53,503 nt of DNA from Cryomorphaceae bacterium (GTDB lineage Bacteria > Bacteroidota > Bacteroidia > Flavobacteriales_D > Cryomorphaceae): contig PXBH01000204.1 of the NCBI GenBank assembly GCA_003565555.1, forward strand, positions 1 to 53,503, in the 5' to 3' direction. Shown one piece after another: positions 16,091 to 42,909 of the stretch; the stretch's first letter is position 1, and the number at the start of each line of letters is the position of its first letter. The notes beneath the pieces were generated by a model that had not been told where the DNA came from, searched no databases, and saw nothing but the letters and a program-made list of their open reading frames with translations. The position numbers were made by a program, and so were the translations under genes.

Positions 16091-17539
16091 TTACAATCCG
16101 AGGCCAAAATAGTCGGGGGTGCCGTCGGCATGAACCCCTTCTATCAGTACGCCTCCCTCTTTTGAGCGCAGTGTTAAGTATACATCCTCCGGAGAGTCTA
16201 CGGGTTGCTTATCAATGTGCGTGATGACGAATCCTATTTTCAACCCGGCTTTCCTGAGTTTGCCGTCGGTAAGTTCGCTTATTTTTACGCCATTTCCAAT
16301 CTTCAGACGCTCTTTTTCTTTCTCCCCGATGAAGTCAAAAGTGCCTCCGAAAACGGTATTTTTTTCAAATTCAGCCTTTTTCCCGATGTCTGTATTGCCG
16401 TATCTGTCGCGCAAAACAATATCAAATTTTTCCGACTTGCTTCCGCGCAATACTTTTACCTCAATGCGGTCTCCCGGACGGTGCTTTCCGATCTGCTCCT
16501 GCAGTTCTGTTACGTTGCGGATTTTCCGACCTTCCACCGCCGTGATGATGTCGCCGGCTTTCATACCGCGCTCTTCAGCGGCACCACCCTCGATCAATCC
16601 GTTTACCAATACGCCTTCTGTAACGCTGAGCTTGTTTTCCAGCACTGTGGCCGCGTCGAGGTTTGCTATGTTCACCCCGATGTAGGCACGTTGTACCTTA
16701 CCGTATTCCAGAAGGTCGGCGGTTACTTTCTGCACGATGCTCACAGGTATGGCAAAGCTGTACCCGCTGTAAGATCCTGTACGTGATGCGATGGCCGTAT
16801 TAATTCCTACAAGTTCTCCGCGGCTGTTTACCAAAGCACCGCCGCTGTTTCCCGGATTTACGGCCGCATCTGTTTGAATAAAGGACTCCAGCGGAAAGGC
16901 ATCCTGACTCGGATCATAGCCCAAAATATTGATGTTCCTGGCTTTGGCACTTACAATTCCGGCGGTTACCGTGCTCGTCAAATTGAAAGGATTTCCGACG
17001 GCCAATACCCACTCGCCTACCTGAAGAAAGTCACTGTCGCCTAAAATGATAGAGGGCAACCCTTGATCTTCTATTTTGAGCACGGCCAAATCGGTAGAGG
17101 GATCAGCTCCGATCAATCGCGCTTGATAGGTGCGGTTGTCATTGGTGGTTACCTCAATTTCGGCGGCATTGTCGATGACGTGGTTGTTTGTCACGATGTA
17201 GCCGTCACCGCTGATGATCACCCCTGATCCTGCAGCGCGCTGCTGCTGTGAATAATAGCGTTCTCCACCGAAGAATTGGCTCCAGGGGTTATAATATTGT
17301 TTGGGTTGAGATTTGGTCTTCACATGCACCACGGCGTCCAAGGACACCCGTGCCGCTTCCACAAAATCAGGCGCCTCGGCGGCCCCGTAAACGGCCGGAC
17401 TGCCGGCGAGCTGAATCACCGGGGCGTGGCGCTCCCCGACCGGTCCGCTCGCGGGCTCAGGCGAGAAGCTGCCTGTGACAAACAGGGTAGTCATTCCTCC
17501 CAGAAAAGCCACAGCGAAAAGTTTTGCAATCTGCTTCAT
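16091..17539 (-). CDS. HtrA/Deg-family periplasmic serine protease
   Basis: A 482-aa envelope protease and chaperone that degrades misfolded periplasmic proteins. An N-terminal hydrophobic segment (about 5-22) exports or anchors it. The trypsin-like domain carries His120 (TNNHVIDN), Asp150 (STDLAVLKI) and Ser232 (NPGNSGGAL). Two PDZ domains follow: the first holds GVLVNGLIEGGAAEERGMKAGD, the second is shorter and C-terminal. The ATG at 17537-17539 is chosen. The frame stays open for about 650 bp further upstream, but that stretch runs over a plausible plus-strand lipoprotein gene and holds no signal peptide. An inverted repeat at 17570-17593 lies in the divergent intergenic region. Confidence 0.95.
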   Translation of the reverse strand: MKQIAKLFAVAFLGGMTTLFVTGSFSPEPASGPVGERHAPVIQLAGSPAVYGAAEAPDFVEAARVSLDAVVHVKTKSQPKQYYNPWSQFFGGERYYSQQQRAAGSGVIISGDGYIVTNNHVIDNAAEIEVTTNDNRTYQARLIGADPSTDLAVLKIEDQGLPSIILGDSDFLQVGEWVLAVGNPFNLTSTVTAGIVSAKARNINILGYDPSQDAFPLESFIQTDAAVNPGNSGGALVNSRGELVGINTAIASRTGSYSGYSFAIPVSIVQKVTADLLEYGKVQRAYIGVNIANLDAATVLENKLSVTEGVLVNGLIEGGAAEERGMKAGDIITAVEGRKIRNVTELQEQIGKHRPGDRIEVKVLRGSKSEKFDIVLRDRYGNTDIGKKAEFEKNTVFGGTFDFIGEKEKERLKIGNGVKISELTDGKLRKAGLKIGFVITHIDKQPVDSPEDVYLTLRSKEGGVLIEGVHADGTPDYFGLGL

Positions 17540-17569
17540 GATGTTTCTGATGTTTTGTAATTCTCGATC

Positions 17570-17593
17570 ATTCAACAGCACCTGCCGTTGAAT
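17570..17593. promoter_or_regulatory. Inverted repeat between divergent HtrA and lipoprotein genes
   Basis: ATTCAAC (17570-17576) and GTTGAAT (17587-17593) form a perfect 7-bp inverted repeat with a 10-bp centre. It lies 30 bp from the HtrA start and just ahead of the plus-strand -7 box at 17597-17604, where a regulator could act on both genes. The operator role is inference. Confidence 0.35.
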
Positions 17594-17596
17594 TCT

Positions 17597-17604
17597 TACT
17601 TTTG
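17597..17604 (+). promoter_or_regulatory. -7 promoter element of the lipoprotein-dapF operon
   Basis: TACTTTTG is an exact TAnnTTTG match. It ends 2 bp before a possible TTG start at 17607, so translation probably starts at the GTG at 17631 or 17646. Confidence 0.5.
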
Positions 17605-17630
17605 TCTTGTTAATTCCTGTTAAGCACTCT

Positions 17631-18401
17631 GTGTCTGTCTTTACGGTGTCTGAAAAAGCAAAATTCGTACCACGTCTTTTCCCGGGTGGACCGGGCAGAA
17701 CTTTTGTCATCATCTCCGGCATTCTCGTCGCGGCGGGGCTGTGGTCTTCCTGCGGAAATATCCCGAGACAGGAACCAAATTCGGAGTCCGAACAGGTGAG
17801 CGAATCCTCCCCGCAAGTACCTGTGAGCCCCTCCGTCACATTCGTCGGGGAGGATACTTCCGCAGTTTCTGTACCGCTCAGCCCGGAGCCGGAAGAGAAG
17901 GATCGAAATCGTCCCGTGCAAGTATCGGAGCCCGCTGCGCTCACTGCGGATTTTGACGATATTCCCGAGCCCGACTTTTCCGGTTGGTTCGCCGAACTTG
18001 AGGAAATTTCCACGGCAGATCGGGACGAAATTGCCCACAGCCGCCTCATTTCCTCCGTGTCCCTTCCTGTGATCAGTCCCGATGCGGGTGATGATGTTGA
18101 TTCATTGACGGTCGCTTTGGAGAAACGCCTTTCCGTTCGACCCGATCGCTTTCCGTCCACTGTGGTATTGGAGCGTTGGCAATCTCCTGTCAATTACAGA
18201 GGTTATAAATTCAATCGGCGGAAATTGGTACTCTTCGGCGCAGCGCCGCATCTGCCGGTGCGCATCTATCGCCTCACCGACGACTACTATTTTTCCGTGG
18301 CCGAGACACTTTATGAACTGGGTGTTCGCCCGGAATTTTCTTCGTTTATCGCCGTGCGGGATACCGCACTTTCCCGATATTTGCTGCACTTTGCAGATTA
18401 A
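17631..18401 (+). CDS. Putative membrane-anchored or lipoprotein, unknown function
   Basis: A protein of about 256 aa that I cannot assign to a family. A basic stretch precedes a hydrophobic segment (FVIISGILVAAGL) ending WSSC, which resembles a lipobox although Trp at -3 is unusual. A Ser/Pro/Glu-rich, disordered-looking linker follows, then a folded C-terminal half ending in ALSRYLLHFAD. The segment LPVRIYRLTDDYYFSVAETLYELG is the most structured part. No ATG lies near the start. GTG 17631 fits the -7 box at 17597-17604; GTG 17646 or TTG 17607 are alternatives. Its last 11 bases overlap the proposed dapF start, so it probably heads the dapF-GNAT-mltG operon. Confidence 0.7.
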   Translation: MSVFTVSEKAKFVPRLFPGGPGRTFVIISGILVAAGLWSSCGNIPRQEPNSESEQVSESSPQVPVSPSVTFVGEDTSAVSVPLSPEPEEKDRNRPVQVSEPAALTADFDDIPEPDFSGWFAELEEISTADRDEIAHSRLISSVSLPVISPDAGDDVDSLTVALEKRLSVRPDRFPSTVVLERWQSPVNYRGYKFNRRKLVLFGAAPHLPVRIYRLTDDYYFSVAETLYELGVRPEFSSFIAVRDTALSRYLLHFAD

Positions 18402-26941: not shown

Positions 26942-27018
26942 GACGTCATGATGTCGGTTATTTTACCGCATCAGGGACATTTTTGCTTCTGCCGTACAAC
27001 TATTTCTGCTTTCGGCAG
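26942..27018 (+). promoter_or_regulatory. Candidate regulatory region of the ECF sigma gene
   Basis: A near-perfect 14-bp palindrome centred on TCATGA (26942-26955, one mismatched pair) and an inverted repeat CTGCCG-N18-CGGCAG (26989-27018) lie in the 99 bp before the ECF sigma start. TTTG at 26982-26985 and TATTTCTG at 27001-27008 (7 of 8 matches to the -7 box) could form a promoter inside the second repeat. All functions here are inference. Confidence 0.3.
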
Positions 27019-27023
27019 TCATC

Positions 27024-27611
27024 ATGGGAAAGGATAAATCGCATAAATCTGAAGAATTACAGCTGGCAGAAGCGTGCAGCAAAGGTGACAGGCGCGCTCA
27101 GGCCATGTTGTATGAGACCTACGCCAAGCAAATGATGTCCGTCTGTTTACGCTATGCAAGAGACCCGGATGAAGCCAATGATTTTTTTCAAGACGGTTTT
27201 ATCAAAGTCTTTCGAAAGATCGGGATGTTCGACGGCAAAGGTCCGCTCGGCGCGTGGATCAGGCGCACCATGGCCAACAATGCACTGGATCGGCTGCGCC
27301 GAATTCAGCGTGAAAACAAGCAGGTCGCTTTCTACCGAGAAGAGTACATACATGAGCAGGATGATGTGATAAATCCTTTTGATGAGGAAGATAAGCTCCC
27401 CGATCGCGACAAATTGATGGAACTGGTGGGGAAAATGCCGCACGGATACAGAACCGTATTCAGTATGTATGCCGTAGAAGAATACAGCCACAAAGAAATT
27501 GCCGAGGCACTCGGGATCGCCGAGAGTACCTCCAAAACGCAATACAGAAAGGCCAAAGCCTACATGAGGAGCTTGATTGAAAATGAATTAAAGCAAGAAA
27601 CAGGTGAGTAG
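27024..27611 (+). CDS. ECF-type RNA polymerase sigma-70 factor
   Basis: A 195-aa extracytoplasmic-function sigma factor. Region 2 includes CLRYARDPDEANDFFQDGFIKVFRKI, and region 4 includes MPHGYRTVFSMYAVEEYSHKEIAEALGIAESTSKTQYRKAKAYMR with the helix-turn-helix. The linker holds a short acidic patch (DEQDDVINPFDEEDKL-like). It should direct polymerase to a small regulon in answer to an envelope or surface signal. Its stop lies within the downstream PKD/gliding-CTD gene (8-bp overlap), which marks that protein as its likely partner. Palindromes upstream suggest it is itself regulated. Confidence 0.93.
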   Translation: MGKDKSHKSEELQLAEACSKGDRRAQAMLYETYAKQMMSVCLRYARDPDEANDFFQDGFIKVFRKIGMFDGKGPLGAWIRRTMANNALDRLRRIQRENKQVAFYREEYIHEQDDVINPFDEEDKLPDRDKLMELVGKMPHGYRTVFSMYAVEEYSHKEIAEALGIAESTSKTQYRKAKAYMRSLIENELKQETGE

Positions 27612-28731
27612 AGACGCATTTGATAAGAAGATCGGAGAGGTGCTCAGGGAGGCCGAGACACCCGTACCCGAAGGGGTCCGGGAGGCTATCTTGAAAGCGT
27701 CGCGCCCTTCCGCACCGAAGACCGGCCTCGGCGCGGCCGCCGGTGCGGTTGCAGCCGTTGTACTGCTCGGTGCTTTGGCTTTTTACAGCCAATCTCGCCA
27801 AGGCGAAGATTTTACTCCGGCCGCCGAAAAATCCGCAAAGCACACTGCCGAACAGGTGACGCTCAGCCCCGAGCCTACTGCCGCTGAAACCGTGGATCCC
27901 GAAGAGGAACAGCGCAGTGAGACCTCAGCAGATGCAGGATCCGCTCCCTTTGCCGAAGAGGCTGTCGAGGAATACCCCGACAGGAATGAAGATATGGCCG
28001 CCGCTCACGGAGCGGGATCGGAGCCCCTTGAACCTGAAACGGCCCCAAATTCAGAAACTTCCCAAATGCCGGAATCTGAGCCTAAGGCTGAGAACACCCG
28101 CAATGCTGCGGAGGAGATCCTTCTGCCCGAGAGCATTCCCGCATCGGCCGCTCCGCCGAGCACCTCGGAACGCGCATCCCTCGCGCTCAGCACCGCCGAC
28201 GAAGGCGGGGAAGAACAAGTGCTCCGCGCAGCAATTCGTGCAGAAAATCTGAAAGGTTTTGCACCCTTCGAAATCGACTTTGAAGCGCTCGGAACTTTCA
28301 GCGAGGTGGAATGGGATTTCGGCAGGTTCGGTACCTCAAATGAGGTGAATACCCGTCGCACTTTCGATCGTCCCGGCACTTACACGGTGATGCTCACCGC
28401 TTTTGACAGCGAAGGAAAGTACGTGACGGATATGGTGACCGTAGATGTACGCGAAGGCTCTAACCTCGTAGTGCCCGACAGTTTCACACCGAACGGTGAC
28501 GGGATCAACGATACCTTCAAAGCTGAAGGGGTAAACTTGGTATCGTACCGCCTCACCGTGGTAGATTCTCGCGGCAATACCGTATTCGAAACCCGAAACA
28601 TCGATCAGCCCTGGGTGTACGACGGACCGCAGGTAAGCAGTGAATTGGATGCCTATTTCGCTATCATTCAGGCGGAAGGTATTGACGGTAAAACGTACAA
28701 CATCCGCCGGCGAATCAATATCATTTTTTAA
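27604..28731 (+). CDS. Single-pass membrane protein with PKD and gliding-motility C-terminal domain; putative ECF sigma partner
   Basis: A 375-aa protein. Residues of about 1-35 are a short cytoplasmic helix (AFDKKIGEVLREAETPVPEGVREAILKA), like the N-terminus of anti-sigma-like proteins encoded after ECF sigma genes in Bacteroidota. One membrane helix follows (about 43-60), then a 150-residue linker rich in Glu, Pro, Ser and Ala, a PKD-like domain (about 215-285), and a gliding-motility C-terminal domain starting VPDSFTPNGDGINDTF. The start is GTG 27604, overlapping the sigma gene by 8 bp. There is no cleavable signal peptide, so the PKD part would sit in the periplasm. Anti-sigma function is inferred from layout only. 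It overlaps DUF3810 tail to tail by 11 bp. Confidence 0.85.
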   Translation: MSRDAFDKKIGEVLREAETPVPEGVREAILKASRPSAPKTGLGAAAGAVAAVVLLGALAFYSQSRQGEDFTPAAEKSAKHTAEQVTLSPEPTAAETVDPEEEQRSETSADAGSAPFAEEAVEEYPDRNEDMAAAHGAGSEPLEPETAPNSETSQMPESEPKAENTRNAAEEILLPESIPASAAPPSTSERASLALSTADEGGEEQVLRAAIRAENLKGFAPFEIDFEALGTFSEVEWDFGRFGTSNEVNTRRTFDRPGTYTVMLTAFDSEGKYVTDMVTVDVREGSNLVVPDSFTPNGDGINDTFKAEGVNLVSYRLTVVDSRGNTVFETRNIDQPWVYDGPQVSSELDAYFAIIQAEGIDGKTYNIRRRINIIF

Positions 28732-37652: not shown

Positions 37653-40442
37653 TTACCGCAAAAGGGTCACATGCCCCTGCTTTACCACACTGCCCGCACT
37701 GCTGCGGGGATTCATTTCCACCCGCCAGGTGTAAATTCCCGTTCCGACGTAATGGGTGCCTCCGTTCAGCGATCCGTTCCATTTTTTCTCGGGATTGTCC
37801 GTACTGAAAACGAGGCTTCCGTTCCGGTCATAAATGCGAAAATCGAAGGTGTAGTCTTCGTATCCCCGCATCAAGGGAAAGAAGAGGTCGTTGATGCCGT
37901 CGCCGTCCGGGGAGAAGGCATTGGGCATAAAAAAGTACTGCTCCGGAATCAACTCAAAGTCCGCGCAGGTCGTTGAGGTGCAGCCTTCCGCTGAGATCAC
38001 TTCGAGGCATCCCCGAAAGAGCCCGCCGTTTCTGCCCCGCAAGGCCAACTGTACTTCCGGCCCTTCGGCCTCTGCGAACCGCATGGGGCCGCCGTCGTTG
38101 CCGATGTCGAAGAATTCCCAAAGGTACATTCGGTCGGGAAGGGGATTAAACACTGAAAACCCGAAGACATCACTCCCGCGTACATTTCCGATGAAAAAGC
38201 GCTCAAATTCGGCAACGGGCGCCGGGAGAAGCTCGACCTCGGCTGTCCCTGTGCCTTGGGATGCGCAAGTGCCTTCATCCGCACCGGTGAGCGTGTAGGT
38301 GCCGGCCGCGGCGGCTATGATGGCAGCATCGCTTTGGTTGATAACCAACGGCGGTTGGGGTGCCCCGTTGAAGGTATAGGTGAGGGTGGCAGGGAGGCTT
38401 CCCGTGTAGGAAACCGGAATCGGGACGGTTCCGGTCGGGCACAGTCCGTAAGTATCGTCGATCACCGCTGCGGGCGCTTCAGCGATAAAGAGGTTGAGAA
38501 AGGCATTGTCCGTTCCGCAAATGCCCGCGTCGGCAGTGTAAATGTAGAGGCCCTGCGGAGCCTCGGCGGGAAAAACGGTTTCCCCGGAAAGGGTATCGGA
38601 AAATTGGTACACCCAAAGTCCGCCCGGATCGGGGGTGCCGCCGAGAAGGTCGGTCAGGACCGCAGCGGGCTGGTTGTCGCATACGGTGGCTTCTGTGTCT
38701 GCGCCCGCATCGGGCAGGGGAAGCACGGTGATCTCCGCCGTGCCGCTTGCGTTTCCGGTGCACACCTCGTCGGTGATTTGCGTGGCGGTATAGGTCACGG
38801 TCGAGTCCGGGCTGAGCGGTATCTGGAGCGTGTTGCTTTCCGCCACTTCCGTAAAAAGGTCCGTCCCGTCGGTGTATTCAAGGAGGAAGGGACCGGTGCC
38901 TTCGAAAGTCGCAAGAAGCTCGGCGGTCTCGCCTTTACAGATTGCGGTATCGCCGGTGAGTACGGCGACCGCGGGGCAAATGCATGCTTCAAACCCGGAG
39001 ATGACCAAAGAATCACACCCGTTGGCATCGCTCACGGTCAGGCTGTATTCAGAACCCGCCGCAATGGGAACGCTCGTAAAAACAGGGCCCGCGAAACCTC
39101 CTTCCGCACCGGACGCAGTCAGACTGCCCGGGTCACCGCCGTCGATGGTGACGGTAAGTACAAAGGTTTCCTCCTCATAATCACAGCTCACCTCCTCCGA
39201 AGCGATCGAAAGGGGCGCGACGGGGGCTACCTCGACGGTGTAGAGTGTGTCGCAGTCCGCTTCTGTCTCGATGAGTACTTCGTAGATTCCGGCGCTGTCG
39301 GCAAGGCTTCCGTCGGGGAGGATGATGCTTTCGCCGGGGCAAATTTGGGCAGTGAGGCTGACGGAAATGACATCGCCGGGAACAATGACGATTTCAGCCG
39401 CATCGGTGCCGCATTCATTGGTCACCTCGACACTGTAGGTTCCGGGGGAGTCAATAAAAATGTCTTCCGCATCTTCTCCTGTGCTCCAGAGGTATTCCGT
39501 ACCCCCGAATGCCGTAAGTTGTCCGATTTGGCCGGGGCAGATTTCATCGCCGAGGCTGCTGATGATGCTCGCTTCCGGAATGCTTCCCGTTACCAAAATT
39601 TCTGTCTGGCTTTCTATCGTGAACCCACACGCCGTAATCGCGGTGAGGGTGAGTACCACGGTGCCTTCTTCGGCTTCTCCGGCCGTGTACACGGCGGTCG
39701 GGGAGGTGGGGTCTGAAAAGCTGCCCGCACCTCCGGTCCAAAGTACGTTTCCGAGGTCACCTTCAGCCGTCCCGGTCAGGGTGATTTCATTTCCGGGGCA
39801 TACCTGTCCGTCGGGTCCTGCATCCAAAAAGACGGGTTCGGGATTACCGGCCGCGGTGAGGCTTACATCGTCCAGGAAGAGTAGCTCGTCTCTGCGGTTG
39901 AGGTTGATCTGAAGTTTGAATCCGAAGCTCAGGGCGCATTCGGGCACTTCGTAAATGTAGTTGTGGTCTGCGATGGCCAGCGAGAGATCGCCCCCGCCGT
40001 TTTCGAGTACAATGGGGTCGGCTTCGGTTCCGTCTATGATGGGGGTGAAAATGAGGTCTTCGCCTACATCCCAGCCTGCTCCGTTGCAATAAGGTATTCG
40101 GTTTCCGTACCAGAATTCCAGGGTCTTCGGTACTGCGGGGTAGGTGCTGAGGTCGATATCCTCGAAGGTGAAGATATTGTCGATGGCGGCTCCGTTGCCC
40201 GCACCCCCGCCGAAACAGCTTCCGCCGGACGGATCCGTGCCGCCTACTACGAGCGAGAAACTGCCCGACTTCACATTCGGCGGACTCTGAGATTCTTCAA
40301 AAGCTTCGGCCCCTGCACCTGTGGAGGTATATGCCCAGGTATCGGAGGGGTTGCTCTCTCCTCCCTGAAATGCGAGCAGAAGCTGCGCATTCGCCGACAC
40401 GGACGAAACCAAAAAGAGGAGGATAAGAATCGGAAGGCGCAT
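37653..40442 (-). CDS. T9SS type B-sorted surface protein (paralog 1)
   Basis: A 929-aa exported protein. After a Sec signal peptide (about 1-19) come about 180 residues shared with the upstream paralog, from LAFQGGE to DELLFLDDV, with a conserved SCFGGG…YCNG…CA cysteine set. The middle consists of several Ig-like/adhesin-type beta-repeats rich in Asp, Gly and Thr. The end (FFMPNAFSPDGDGINDLFFP … VTLLR) is the gliding-motility-associated/type B sorting domain that takes proteins through the type IX system to the cell surface. The ligand is unknown; adhesion or polymer binding is likely for the class. A TACCTTTG box lies 33 bp upstream. It arose by tandem duplication with the next gene. Confidence 0.9.
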   Translation of the reverse strand: MRLPILILLFLVSSVSANAQLLLAFQGGESNPSDTWAYTSTGAGAEAFEESQSPPNVKSGSFSLVVGGTDPSGGSCFGGGAGNGAAIDNIFTFEDIDLSTYPAVPKTLEFWYGNRIPYCNGAGWDVGEDLIFTPIIDGTEADPIVLENGGGDLSLAIADHNYIYEVPECALSFGFKLQINLNRRDELLFLDDVSLTAAGNPEPVFLDAGPDGQVCPGNEITLTGTAEGDLGNVLWTGGAGSFSDPTSPTAVYTAGEAEEGTVVLTLTAITACGFTIESQTEILVTGSIPEASIISSLGDEICPGQIGQLTAFGGTEYLWSTGEDAEDIFIDSPGTYSVEVTNECGTDAAEIVIVPGDVISVSLTAQICPGESIILPDGSLADSAGIYEVLIETEADCDTLYTVEVAPVAPLSIASEEVSCDYEEETFVLTVTIDGGDPGSLTASGAEGGFAGPVFTSVPIAAGSEYSLTVSDANGCDSLVISGFEACICPAVAVLTGDTAICKGETAELLATFEGTGPFLLEYTDGTDLFTEVAESNTLQIPLSPDSTVTYTATQITDEVCTGNASGTAEITVLPLPDAGADTEATVCDNQPAAVLTDLLGGTPDPGGLWVYQFSDTLSGETVFPAEAPQGLYIYTADAGICGTDNAFLNLFIAEAPAAVIDDTYGLCPTGTVPIPVSYTGSLPATLTYTFNGAPQPPLVINQSDAAIIAAAAGTYTLTGADEGTCASQGTGTAEVELLPAPVAEFERFFIGNVRGSDVFGFSVFNPLPDRMYLWEFFDIGNDGGPMRFAEAEGPEVQLALRGRNGGLFRGCLEVISAEGCTSTTCADFELIPEQYFFMPNAFSPDGDGINDLFFPLMRGYEDYTFDFRIYDRNGSLVFSTDNPEKKWNGSLNGGTHYVGTGIYTWRVEMNPRSSAGSVVKQGHVTLLR

Positions 40443-40635: not shown

Positions 40636-42909
40636 CTACCTCGCGAGGGTAAGCGGCCCGGCAAATTCTTCCCCGTTCGGCAACTTGAGAATGTAGAAGT
40701 AGGTGCCCGCGGGGAGGTTGTCGCCGTCCCAATCGTTGTTGTACCAAGTGGTCTCAAAGACCACGCTGCCCCATCTGTTGAAGATTTGCAAGGTGGAGTT
40801 GGGGAAAGCCTCGAGTCCGCGGATCAGAAATATGTCGTTGATGCCGTCTCCGTTGGGAGAGAATCCTTCGGGGATGCGCAGGTCGAAAGTCACGTTTACG
40901 GCGACCTCGGCTGTTGAGGAACACCCGTTTTCATCGGTAACGGTGAGTGTCACGGTGTACACGCCCGAACTTTCGTAGCTGTGTTGGGGATTGGCGGCGG
41001 CACTCGTTCCCCCGTCGCCGAAATCCCAAGAGCGGGAGGCAATGGCGGCCTGACCGATTTCGGATTGGTCGGTGAAGGATACCGGCACGCCGGGCTCGAC
41101 CGTCGCGGTCGGTGTGAAGCTGAATGCGGCTGCGGGCCCGCTCTCGGTAACGGTGATGAGGTTGCTGCCCGTGCAGCCGGCCTCATCGGTCACGGTGAGT
41201 TCGTAGGTGCCTTCCCCGACGATGATGAGGGACTCCTCCTCGCCGGTGCTCCAACTGTAAGATGCAAACCCGTCCTGCGCTGCGATGACGATCTCCTCGC
41301 CCTCGCAAATCAGGGTGTCGCCGGGTAGAATGACGACGGGGTTTTCGGAGATTTCCACGGTGAATTCAACGGTTTCCGAAAGGCAGTTTTCAGCCTCGGC
41401 CTGCACGGAGTAGAGGCCGGAGAGCTGCGTATTGAGGTCTGTGAGCACGAGGACGGCATCGGTGCCGATGACGTTGCCCTGCGGGTCGCTCCAGGTGTAG
41501 GTGACGCCGTCTTGATCTTGCGACTCCAAGGTGAGGTTGTCGCCTTCGCATGCATTGTCGTTACCCGAAAAGGCGGGATTTTCCGGAAGGGGATTGAAGA
41601 GGAGAAAGATGGTATCTGAAGCGGAGCATTCAAATTCATTGGTCACATCGGCGAAGTAGGTGCCGGTTTCCGTGGCGGTGAATTCGGGCCCCTCGGAGCC
41701 GTCTTGCCAGGTGAAGGAGAGCCCGTCGGGGTCAAGCCCCGTGCTGATGAGGAAGGATTCGCCCTGACAGAGCACATCGTCTTCGGGAAAATTGAAGAGG
41801 GGAGCGGGGATGACCGACACATCGATGCTGTCGCGGAAGCTTTCGCACCCTTCCACGGAGATGAACCCGAAGTAGGTGCCGGCCTCCGCTTGCGTCATGC
41901 TGTCGATGACGAGATTTTGCGTGAAAGCGAGGGAGTTGTCGGGTCTGACGAAGCGGTAGAGGGCGCTGTCGGTATCGGAGAGCATGAGGTCGAGGGTCTC
42001 ACCTTCGCAGTAGATGCTGTCGCCGCTGATGACGTGCGTTTCGGGGCGGGGGCTCAGCGTCAAGATCATGGTGTCGGAAAGCAAGGTGCCGCAAACGGTG
42101 AGTGCCGAAAGAACCAGCGGAATGCTTTCCGTTTCATCCGCTGCGGGCGTGTAGATTACCTGGGGATCGAATGGGGGGTGGAAATTTCCCGAAGCGGCCG
42201 TCCATTGAAAAGTCTCAATGAATCCTCCCGTAAGTGAACCGAGAAGCAATACGGGCTCATTTGTGCAGCCCTGTATATCATCTCCCGCATCTGCGGAAAC
42301 GGGTACGTCACTGCCCGCAACGAAAATGGCGACATCGTCGAGGAAAAGCAGTTCATCTCTTCGGTTAAGGTTGATCATAAGCTCAAAGCCGAAACTTTCC
42401 GCGCATTCGGGGATGTCGTAGGTGTAGGAAGTTTCCTGAATGGAAAGCGATAGCTCGCCTCCGCCCGTTTCAAGCACAATCGGTGCGCCGGCCTCTCCGT
42501 CGATGACGGGGGTGAAAATCAGATTTTCGCCCATGTCCCAGCCCGTTCCGTTGCAATACGGCTGCCTGCTCCCGTACCAAAACTCCAATTGTTTGGGTGA
42601 ACCGGGGTAGCCGCTGAGGTCTACACTTTCGAAAAAGAAAGTATTGTCAATGGCCGCCCCGTTGCCCGTGCCGCCTCCGAAGCAACTTCCCCCGCCGGGG
42701 TCTGTTCCGCCGACCACCAGCGAGAAATCACCCGATTTGATGTTGGGCGGACTCTCCGCTTCTTCCAATGCTTCGGGGCCGGCCCCGGTTGAGGTGAAAG
42801 GCCAGTTGTCTTCGGGGGTGTTTTCACCGCCCTGAAAAGCGAGAACAAATTGGGCTTGAACCGCTGCGGCCGAAAAACAGAAAAAAGTGAGGAAAAATAA
42901 TAAACGCAT
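40636..42909 (-). CDS. T9SS type B-sorted surface protein (paralog 2)
   Basis: A 757-aa exported protein with a Sec signal peptide (ending near AVQAQ at residue 20). Residues of about 20-210 are highly similar to the downstream paralog (LAFQGGE … SCFGGGTGNGAAIDN … DELLFLDDV). Ig-like repeats follow, then a clear PKD domain (SFTPTATVEPGVPVSFTDQS … SRSWDFGDGG … GVYTVTLTVTDENG) at about 585-665. The gliding-motility/type B sorting domain begins IPEGFSPNGDGINDIF and ends LTLAR. The paralog lacks an equally clear PKD domain, so the C-terminal parts diverged more than the N-terminal module. Its -7 box is at 42951-42958. Confidence 0.91.
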   Translation of the reverse strand: MRLLFFLTFFCFSAAAVQAQFVLAFQGGENTPEDNWPFTSTGAGPEALEEAESPPNIKSGDFSLVVGGTDPGGGSCFGGGTGNGAAIDNTFFFESVDLSGYPGSPKQLEFWYGSRQPYCNGTGWDMGENLIFTPVIDGEAGAPIVLETGGGELSLSIQETSYTYDIPECAESFGFELMINLNRRDELLFLDDVAIFVAGSDVPVSADAGDDIQGCTNEPVLLLGSLTGGFIETFQWTAASGNFHPPFDPQVIYTPAADETESIPLVLSALTVCGTLLSDTMILTLSPRPETHVISGDSIYCEGETLDLMLSDTDSALYRFVRPDNSLAFTQNLVIDSMTQAEAGTYFGFISVEGCESFRDSIDVSVIPAPLFNFPEDDVLCQGESFLISTGLDPDGLSFTWQDGSEGPEFTATETGTYFADVTNEFECSASDTIFLLFNPLPENPAFSGNDNACEGDNLTLESQDQDGVTYTWSDPQGNVIGTDAVLVLTDLNTQLSGLYSVQAEAENCLSETVEFTVEISENPVVILPGDTLICEGEEIVIAAQDGFASYSWSTGEEESLIIVGEGTYELTVTDEAGCTGSNLITVTESGPAAAFSFTPTATVEPGVPVSFTDQSEIGQAAIASRSWDFGDGGTSAAANPQHSYESSGVYTVTLTVTDENGCSSTAEVAVNVTFDLRIPEGFSPNGDGINDIFLIRGLEAFPNSTLQIFNRWGSVVFETTWYNNDWDGDNLPAGTYFYILKLPNGEEFAGPLTLAR

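Follow-up and report, generated by a model that had tools for sequence, protein, structure and literature searches.

The window (the whole stretch of DNA that was analysed, 53,503 nucleotides of contig PXBH01000204.1 from a Cryomorphaceae bacterium) carries on its forward strand an overlapping gene pair, in which an ECF sigma factor gene with a predicted promoter of its own is followed by a gene for a candidate anti-sigma factor whose outer end resembles the C-terminal domains (CTDs) of type B cargo of the T9SS. The parts of the locus are given below, with the basis of each assignment in brackets.

26996..27021, + strand: predicted ECF-type autoregulatory promoter, ACAACT (-35), 15 nt, AGTCA (-10 side) (conserved spacing)
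27024..27611, + strand: ECF sigma factor, 195 aa (Pfam Sigma70_r2 and r4_2; TIGR02937)
27604..28731, + strand: single-pass anti-sigma candidate, 375 aa, GTG start (conserved pairing)
27604..27726, + strand: cytosolic segment, residues 1-41, proposed sigma-binding domain (two predicted helices, shared family)
27727..27783, + strand: membrane helix, residues 42-60 (hydropathy only)
27787..28218, + strand: disordered tether, residues 62-205, rich in E/A/S/P/T (composition, pLDDT)
28222..28452, + strand: PKD domain, approximately residues 207-283 (PKD_4, predicted strands)
28453..28728, + strand: type B CTD-like domain (CHU_C), residues 284-375 (PF13585)
28564..28575, + strand: DSRG, residues 321-324, where cargo CTDs read N/D-R-W-G (CTD comparison)

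The first gene encodes an ordinary ECF sigma factor, which holds sigma regions 2 and 4 only and matches the Pfam models of region 2 (PF04542, 60.8 bits, cutoff 24, 1e-16) and region 4_2 (PF08281, 51.9 bits, cutoff 25.7, 6e-14) as well as NCBIfam TIGR02937 (98.3 bits, cutoff 42.9), all above their curated cutoffs. The GTG start of the partner lies, as the initial annotation had described, inside the end of the sigma gene, where it overlaps the sigma stop by 8 nt, and the architecture that it had read from the letters (a cytosolic helix, one membrane helix, an E/P/S-rich linker, a PKD domain, and a CTD) was borne out by hydropathy, Pfam, and an AlphaFold2 model built from an alignment with 54 relatives. 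In this model, N-terminal helices span residues 4-16 and 23-32, and a low-confidence helix spans 52-61; the best 19-residue hydropathy window is 42-60 (value 2.31), which sets the start of the hydrophobic helix at residue 42, behind the conserved cytosolic segment, and it is from hydropathy that we infer the membrane topology of the protein. The following tether (144 residues, 62-205) consists to 87.5% of the residues EDPSTAQNKRG, with ten-residue pLDDT means of 43-61 up to residue 200 and one short helix at 187-195, while the PKD-CTD block from residue 211 has means of 91-98, except for 72 at 341-350. Strands are predicted at 208-283, with PKD_4 matching at 230-280 (33.2 bits, cutoff 27), and CHU_C (PF13585) matches at 290-358 (41.1 bits, cutoff 27); we assign this CTD, which keeps FTPNGDGIND and W337, to type B on the PF13585 match, that to the NCBI type B model TIGR04131 being sub-cutoff (24.7 bits, cutoff 35). 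The closest solved structures are, for the CTD part of the profile, the GhpA grappling-hook protein of Aureispira and, for the PKD part, collagenase PKD domains, and when the whole window model was searched with Foldseek, general Ig/PKD folds came back, which told nothing further about function. Kinship with FecR was considered and rejected, the partner having no FecR domain in Pfam; another sigma factor of the same genome (C65) has a neighbour that, judged by eye, we take to be FecR-like.

The pairing proved to be conserved across Bacteroidota. From 40 related genomes, including the window's own, we examined 31 loci (the 30 best-scoring and one further), and a full CTD-type partner lay directly behind the sigma gene in 28 of them; since this gene order recurs, the adjacency is not due to chance. 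Throughout the window's family (eight genomes, G000-G007), the two genes overlap by exactly 8 nt. The three remaining loci held a broken frame (G001), a different long partner (G017), and, in a short stretch, no downstream ORF (G029). The G001 partner (L034/L006, G001:C32) is broken between the PKD domain and the CTD, either by an assembly error or by a real mutation, and the G017 partner (L047 2033-3229), which belongs to a close sigma relative, has a membrane helix, a long C-terminal region, and no CTD, and is possibly of the barrel type.

On a broader scale, 132 distinct pairs from across Bacteroidota (the related loci, named GTDB loci, further loci, and two paralogues of the window's genome) comprised, among the matches listed, 56 of CTD type, 35 with long partners lacking a CTD, and 41 with short partners; this CTD-type share is inflated and is no natural frequency, because the profile behind the larger set (A1) drew solely on sigma factors whose partners are of CTD type (the broken G001 copy among them), and because the best 80 and best 30 matches of longer lists were taken. 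G014, which lies outside the 31 loci, enters this set as L161. Left out were sigma factors of the window's genome judged unrelated (L065-L071), duplicates (L152, L153), partner-search loci already present as sigma loci, and loci, several at contig ends, in which the first pass gave no downstream ORF (L052, L078, L116, L121, L124, L129, L149, L155, L176). Among 55 full-length CTD-type partners, PF13585 was found at E<=0.01 in 51, TIGR04131 in 46, and PKD_4 in 30, and all 55 have the CTD no further than 30 residues from the C terminus. Their best 19-residue hydropathy window starts at residues 39-82 (median hydropathy 1.99, with two weak cases at 1.22 and 1.29), and the 108-281 residues between the end of the membrane helix and the start of the CTD would in principle be long enough to cross the periplasm.

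The cytosolic segment proved to be a domain that stands behind related sigma factors whatever the outer end of the partner, which upholds the earlier description of it as anti-sigma-like. When the segments ahead of the membrane helix in CTD-type partners were made into a profile, which the helix itself cannot drive since it is not included, this profile matched 62/76 partners of other types at E<=1e-3 (23/35 long, 39/41 short), compared with 3/1117 control ORFs; the 62 include two partners of CTD descent, the broken copy L034 and the degenerate CTD of L063, and the three matching controls lie in L149, L155, and L176, loci without a partner in the first pass. At E<=0.01, 15 of 29 full-length long partners matched OMP_b-brl_2 and 15, not necessarily the same, matched OMP_b-brl. 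The short class of 41 includes L034 and three partners cut by contig ends, and in its 38 full-length members no outer module was recognised, which indicates that the family can do without an outer-membrane end. On the sigma tree (a quick tree with a single support measure), partner types were strongly clustered, with 15 changes vs 60 in shuffles, and by parsimony CTD and other types swapped at least six times, two of these swaps being forced by well-supported branches (L034 and L063 were relabelled as CTD; the original labels gave eight). The two kinds of partner behave, as far as such a tree tells, as if they carried exchangeable outer modules. For example, the sigma factor of the barrel-type pair L079 groups with that of the CTD-type pair L085 (support 89, not starred), and the L079 partner is modelled with helices at 2-17 and 25-35, a membrane helix at 42-64, low confidence to approximately residue 280, and then a barrel that resembles OprF most closely (Z 17.8, rmsd 2.3 over 132 residues), OmpA ranking high as well. 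A third pair in the window's genome (L321 1095-2600, G000:C157) consists of a sigma factor and a 501-aa partner with a membrane helix, whose C terminus looks barrel-like by eye, with nothing found by Pfam.

This arrangement has a published counterpart in Dma, the dual membrane-spanning anti-sigma factors studied in B. thetaiotaomicron (PMC13088901), which are the best precedent for the pair and which the initial annotation had not named. Dma and the window pair are alike in the adjacent sigma gene, an N-terminal sigma-binding segment (proposed in our case), one membrane helix, a long disordered tether, and an outer domain, and the barrel-type L079 has the layout published for Dma2 (PMC13088901); they are unlike at the outer end, which is a beta-barrel in Dma and a PKD domain plus a type B CTD-like domain, i.e., two Ig-like domains, in the window protein. 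By this analogy, the window pair is very probably a trans-envelope sigma/anti-sigma system of Dma layout in which the barrel has been exchanged for PKD and CTD. We suggest that it works like Dma but do not class it as Dma, because the defining barrel is absent and the comparison is one of layout, not of ECF21 membership or of sequence with the B. thetaiotaomicron Dma proteins. The cytosolic family is common to the window partner and long-type partners, including those of two Tannerella MAGs (L100, L117), whose outer ends may be barrels.

What distinguishes the CTDs of these partners from those of secreted proteins emerged from a comparison of 60 anti-sigma CTDs (the 55 above and five from a paralogous system, S2, described below) with 58 cargo CTDs, of which the window's genome supplied 36, other genomes 20, and giant proteins two. 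Cargo fragments L222 and L223, the G000 giant (counted with the cargo as it was), and the S2 partners of G000, G001, and G002, with degenerate CTDs, were left out. The 20 cargo CTDs from other genomes had been picked from among those closest to the window partner, a choice that makes any difference harder to see. The W of N/D-R-W-G was present in 0/60 anti-sigma CTDs vs 47/58 cargo CTDs, and [NDS][RK]WG occurred anywhere in 0/60 vs 44/58, the two giant cargo CTDs retaining R and G without the W. The end of the last strand is often lost as well, with G369 in 31/60 vs 57/58 and R or K as the last residue in 29/60 vs 53/58. Structural positions (F294, P296, W337, and Y351) stay in anti-sigma CTDs, e.g., W337 in 60/60 vs 57/58, P296 in 58/60 vs 57/58, and Y351 in 57/60 vs 51/58 (F in the rest), and the FTPNGDGxND loop is kept in most full-length CTD-type partners. 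The window partner thus shares with type B cargo the PF13585/TIGR04131 family, the FTPNGDGxND loop, and the conserved W and Y (PMC9143113, PMC12618676), and differs from it in being membrane anchored and in having lost N/D-R-W-G, while its relatives have often lost the C-terminal R. In F. johnsoniae, each of five conserved type B CTD motifs is needed for secretion (PMC12618676), and N/D-R-W-G would appear to equal one of these five. The loss weakens the candidate reading of the window CTD as a plain cargo signal and supports, in spirit, the remark of the initial annotation that a CTD protein held in the inner membrane cannot be normal T9SS cargo. Judged from these residues, anti-sigma CTDs are probably derived docking or sensing domains and no longer secretion signals.

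Upstream of the sigma gene, RCAACT and AGTC at a constant spacing of 15 nt are kept in 10/10 genomes of two families, and the sigma factor is predicted to read this conserved promoter of its own gene, i.e., to be autoregulatory. The -10-like GTC ends 3 nt before the annotated ATG in the window and likewise in G001, G002, and G004, so that the transcript would be leaderless or the true start lies further downstream. A looser form of the pattern preceded 16/56 CTD-type sigma genes vs 0.38 expected from shuffles (nine of the 16 genomes had supplied the pattern, the other seven being among the remaining 47), compared with 2/41 short-type genes, one of them L034 (also a pattern source), and 2/35 long-type genes. 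Searches in the window's genome and in the eight family genomes yielded, apart from its own gene, no target of the window sigma that we find convincing. The strict pattern CAACTW-N14-AGTCA matched, in the window's genome, the sigma gene and one other site, 257 nt before a lipoprotein-like ORF, and we rejected these matches as a regulon, the reversed control pattern having given four matches. Across the eight family genomes, RCAACTWTT-N13-GTC gave 21 sites (six at the sigma gene) vs 33 for the reversed pattern, which is no excess; 8/15 of the sites away from the sigma gene lay less than 100 nt from a signal-peptide-like gene start vs 5/30 controls (p 0.016), with the criterion picked after the matches were seen and the controls being the 30 fetched of 33.

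A paralogous pair, S2 (L311 = G000:C44; L314-L320), is present in all eight genomes of the window's family and is arguably a clearer system than the window pair. It comprises a sigma gene, a TM-PKD-CTD anti-sigma gene, and then a gene for a giant secreted protein. GCAACC and CGTC lie upstream of the S2 sigma gene in 8/8 genomes, and RCAACTT and CGTCA precede the next long gene, that of the giant, in 7/7, the eighth contig ending too soon; the promoters were thus found in 15/15 regions vs 0.018 matches expected from shuffles. By our own profile, the giant has a type B CTD in the four loci readable far enough, and in the other three it leaves the stretch. The CGTC promoter type also stands before the best lamin-tail/CotH match in 8/8 genomes (seven by pattern, G004 by eye), that match being partial in G001 and the CHU_C end of the protein having been looked at in G000 only. 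The window's genome has three CGTCA matches, each of which begins 46-119 nt ahead of a CHU_C cargo gene, and here position rather than number is the evidence, because one of the three had served to design the pattern and the reversed control gave nine. We assign these promoters to the S2 sigma and not to the window sigma, since the S2 sigma's own promoter reads CGTC in 8/8 genomes and the window promoter AGTC; they are probably read by the S2 sigma, whose predicted targets, on this promoter evidence, are T9SS type B cargo genes. The S2 anti-sigma CTD is weaker, with our own profile finding it in 5/8 genomes, Pfam missing it in G000, and the G007 copy scoring 19.6 bits, below the Pfam cutoff. 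In Flavobacterium psychrophilum, SM6 (CGT-box) promoters serve T9SS genes and an ECF/anti-sigma operon (PMC9723704), and their -10 CGT box, tied to both, resembles the CGTC promoters of S2; the T9SS genes named for SM6 are machinery (GldN, PorU) whereas the predicted S2 targets are cargo, and the window sigma promoter carries AGTC, not CGTC (PMC9723704). That study lends independent support to a link between such ECF promoters and the T9SS (PMC9723704).

Together, these observations suggest a scheme in which residues 1-41 would retain the sigma factor at the inner membrane and the disordered arm would carry the PKD domain and the modified type B CTD across the periplasm. The CTD would then dock at the outer membrane, its partner there being most likely a shuttle barrel of the PorP/SprF type or some other surface component of the T9SS, and a change in docking (through cargo load, shuttle occupancy, or envelope state) would free the sigma factor, which would transcribe its own operon and probably also surface-protein genes. 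Taken as a whole, from trans-envelope anti-sigma factor through docking to sigma release, we regard this scheme as evenly poised between right and wrong. It takes up the suggestion of the initial annotation that the CTD may sense the secretion machinery or the cell surface and control sigma release, which the conserved pair and the shared cytosolic domain support in part. T9SS shuttles are the first docking candidate because the window's genome encodes the T9SS (SprA, 2497 bits) with 14 PorP/SprF-like barrels, beside 39 CHU_C matches, because type B CTDs bind such barrels, as in SprB-SprF and PG1035-PorP (PMC9143113), and because the sister system S2 controls type B cargo, on promoter evidence. 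Docking to cargo shuttles is rendered doubtful by the loss of the R, the W, and the last-strand end, given the motif mutants of F. johnsoniae (PMC12618676). A more specific version, which we put forward tentatively and would not expect to hold in full, makes the secretion-dead type B CTD a decoy for shuttles or the translocon, such that occupancy or cargo flux would set sigma release for more surface cargo, with CTD and beta-barrel as exchangeable outer-membrane contacts. A literature search that covered few subscription papers showed, among the papers listed, no anti-sigma factor with a T9SS CTD, and the closest system among them was that of Porphyromonas gingivalis, in which PorA, a CTD protein, is proposed to signal via PorXY to the ECF sigma factor SigP (PMC7712824). 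There too a CTD protein influences an ECF sigma that controls T9SS genes, but PorA, itself secreted to the cell surface, works by way of a two-component system and is not a sigma-adjacent inner-membrane anti-sigma factor (PMC7712824).

Three other explanations bear on separate parts of this scheme. That the partner is no anti-sigma factor at all, and is a co-transcribed membrane or surface protein merely travelling with the sigma gene, could draw on the finding that neither Pfam nor NCBIfam places a curated anti-sigma domain in the window partner, and that the NCBIfam 'antisigma' model is reached by 1/55 relatives, weakly (0.0071); we consider it very improbable in view of the translational overlap and the pairing across families, and a cytosolic segment common to partners with quite different outer ends would be difficult to account for if it had no role with the sigma factor. 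If the anti-sigma role is granted, the CTD might still be a working signal on which the T9SS pulls while the membrane helix holds, so that the pull itself, or cleavage behind the helix, frees the sigma factor and the protein senses force or secretion competence. A conserved CTD does sit at the far end of a long tether that is anchored in the inner membrane, the PorL-PorM motor energises both secretion and motility (PMC9143113), and the proposed route from PorA through PorXY to an ECF sigma (PMC7712824) offers a precedent, but the lost N/D-R-W-G and the weakened last strand, evident at G369, make this improbable.

The third explanation dispenses with the T9SS contact. The PKD-CTD block would be a periplasmic or surface ligand sensor only (e.g., for polysaccharide), its Ig-like fold being structural, and the signal would pass by regulated proteolysis, as it does in RsgI-type sensors. 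The cargo-specific N/D-R-W-G is indeed lost while the structural positions are kept, the best solved relatives of the PKD part are the collagenase domains, and PKD_4 is found in just over half of the CTD partners (30/55), i.e., the sensor part varies. Nevertheless, the domain retained is specifically of the T9SS type B family and close to the C terminus in 55/55 partners, most of them keep the FTPNGDGxND loop, and S2 precedes T9SS type B cargo, which leaves a pure ligand sensor unlikely, though a serious contender. Were the docking scheme to hold, it would give Bacteroidota a direct route for adjusting how much T9SS surface protein is made to the condition of the secretion machine, and would extend the Dma layout by a new kind of outer end. 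The anti-sigma CTDs, as natural type B variants with one segment lost and the fold kept, are useful for separating secretion from docking.

Elsewhere in the window, an HtrA/Deg-type protease with PDZ domains is encoded at 16091-18193 (- strand), a possible site-1 protease that nothing ties to the pair. Two adjacent type B CTD proteins at 37653-40442 and 40636-42909 (- strand) have closely similar N-terminal regions and probably represent a tandem duplication of T9SS surface proteins.
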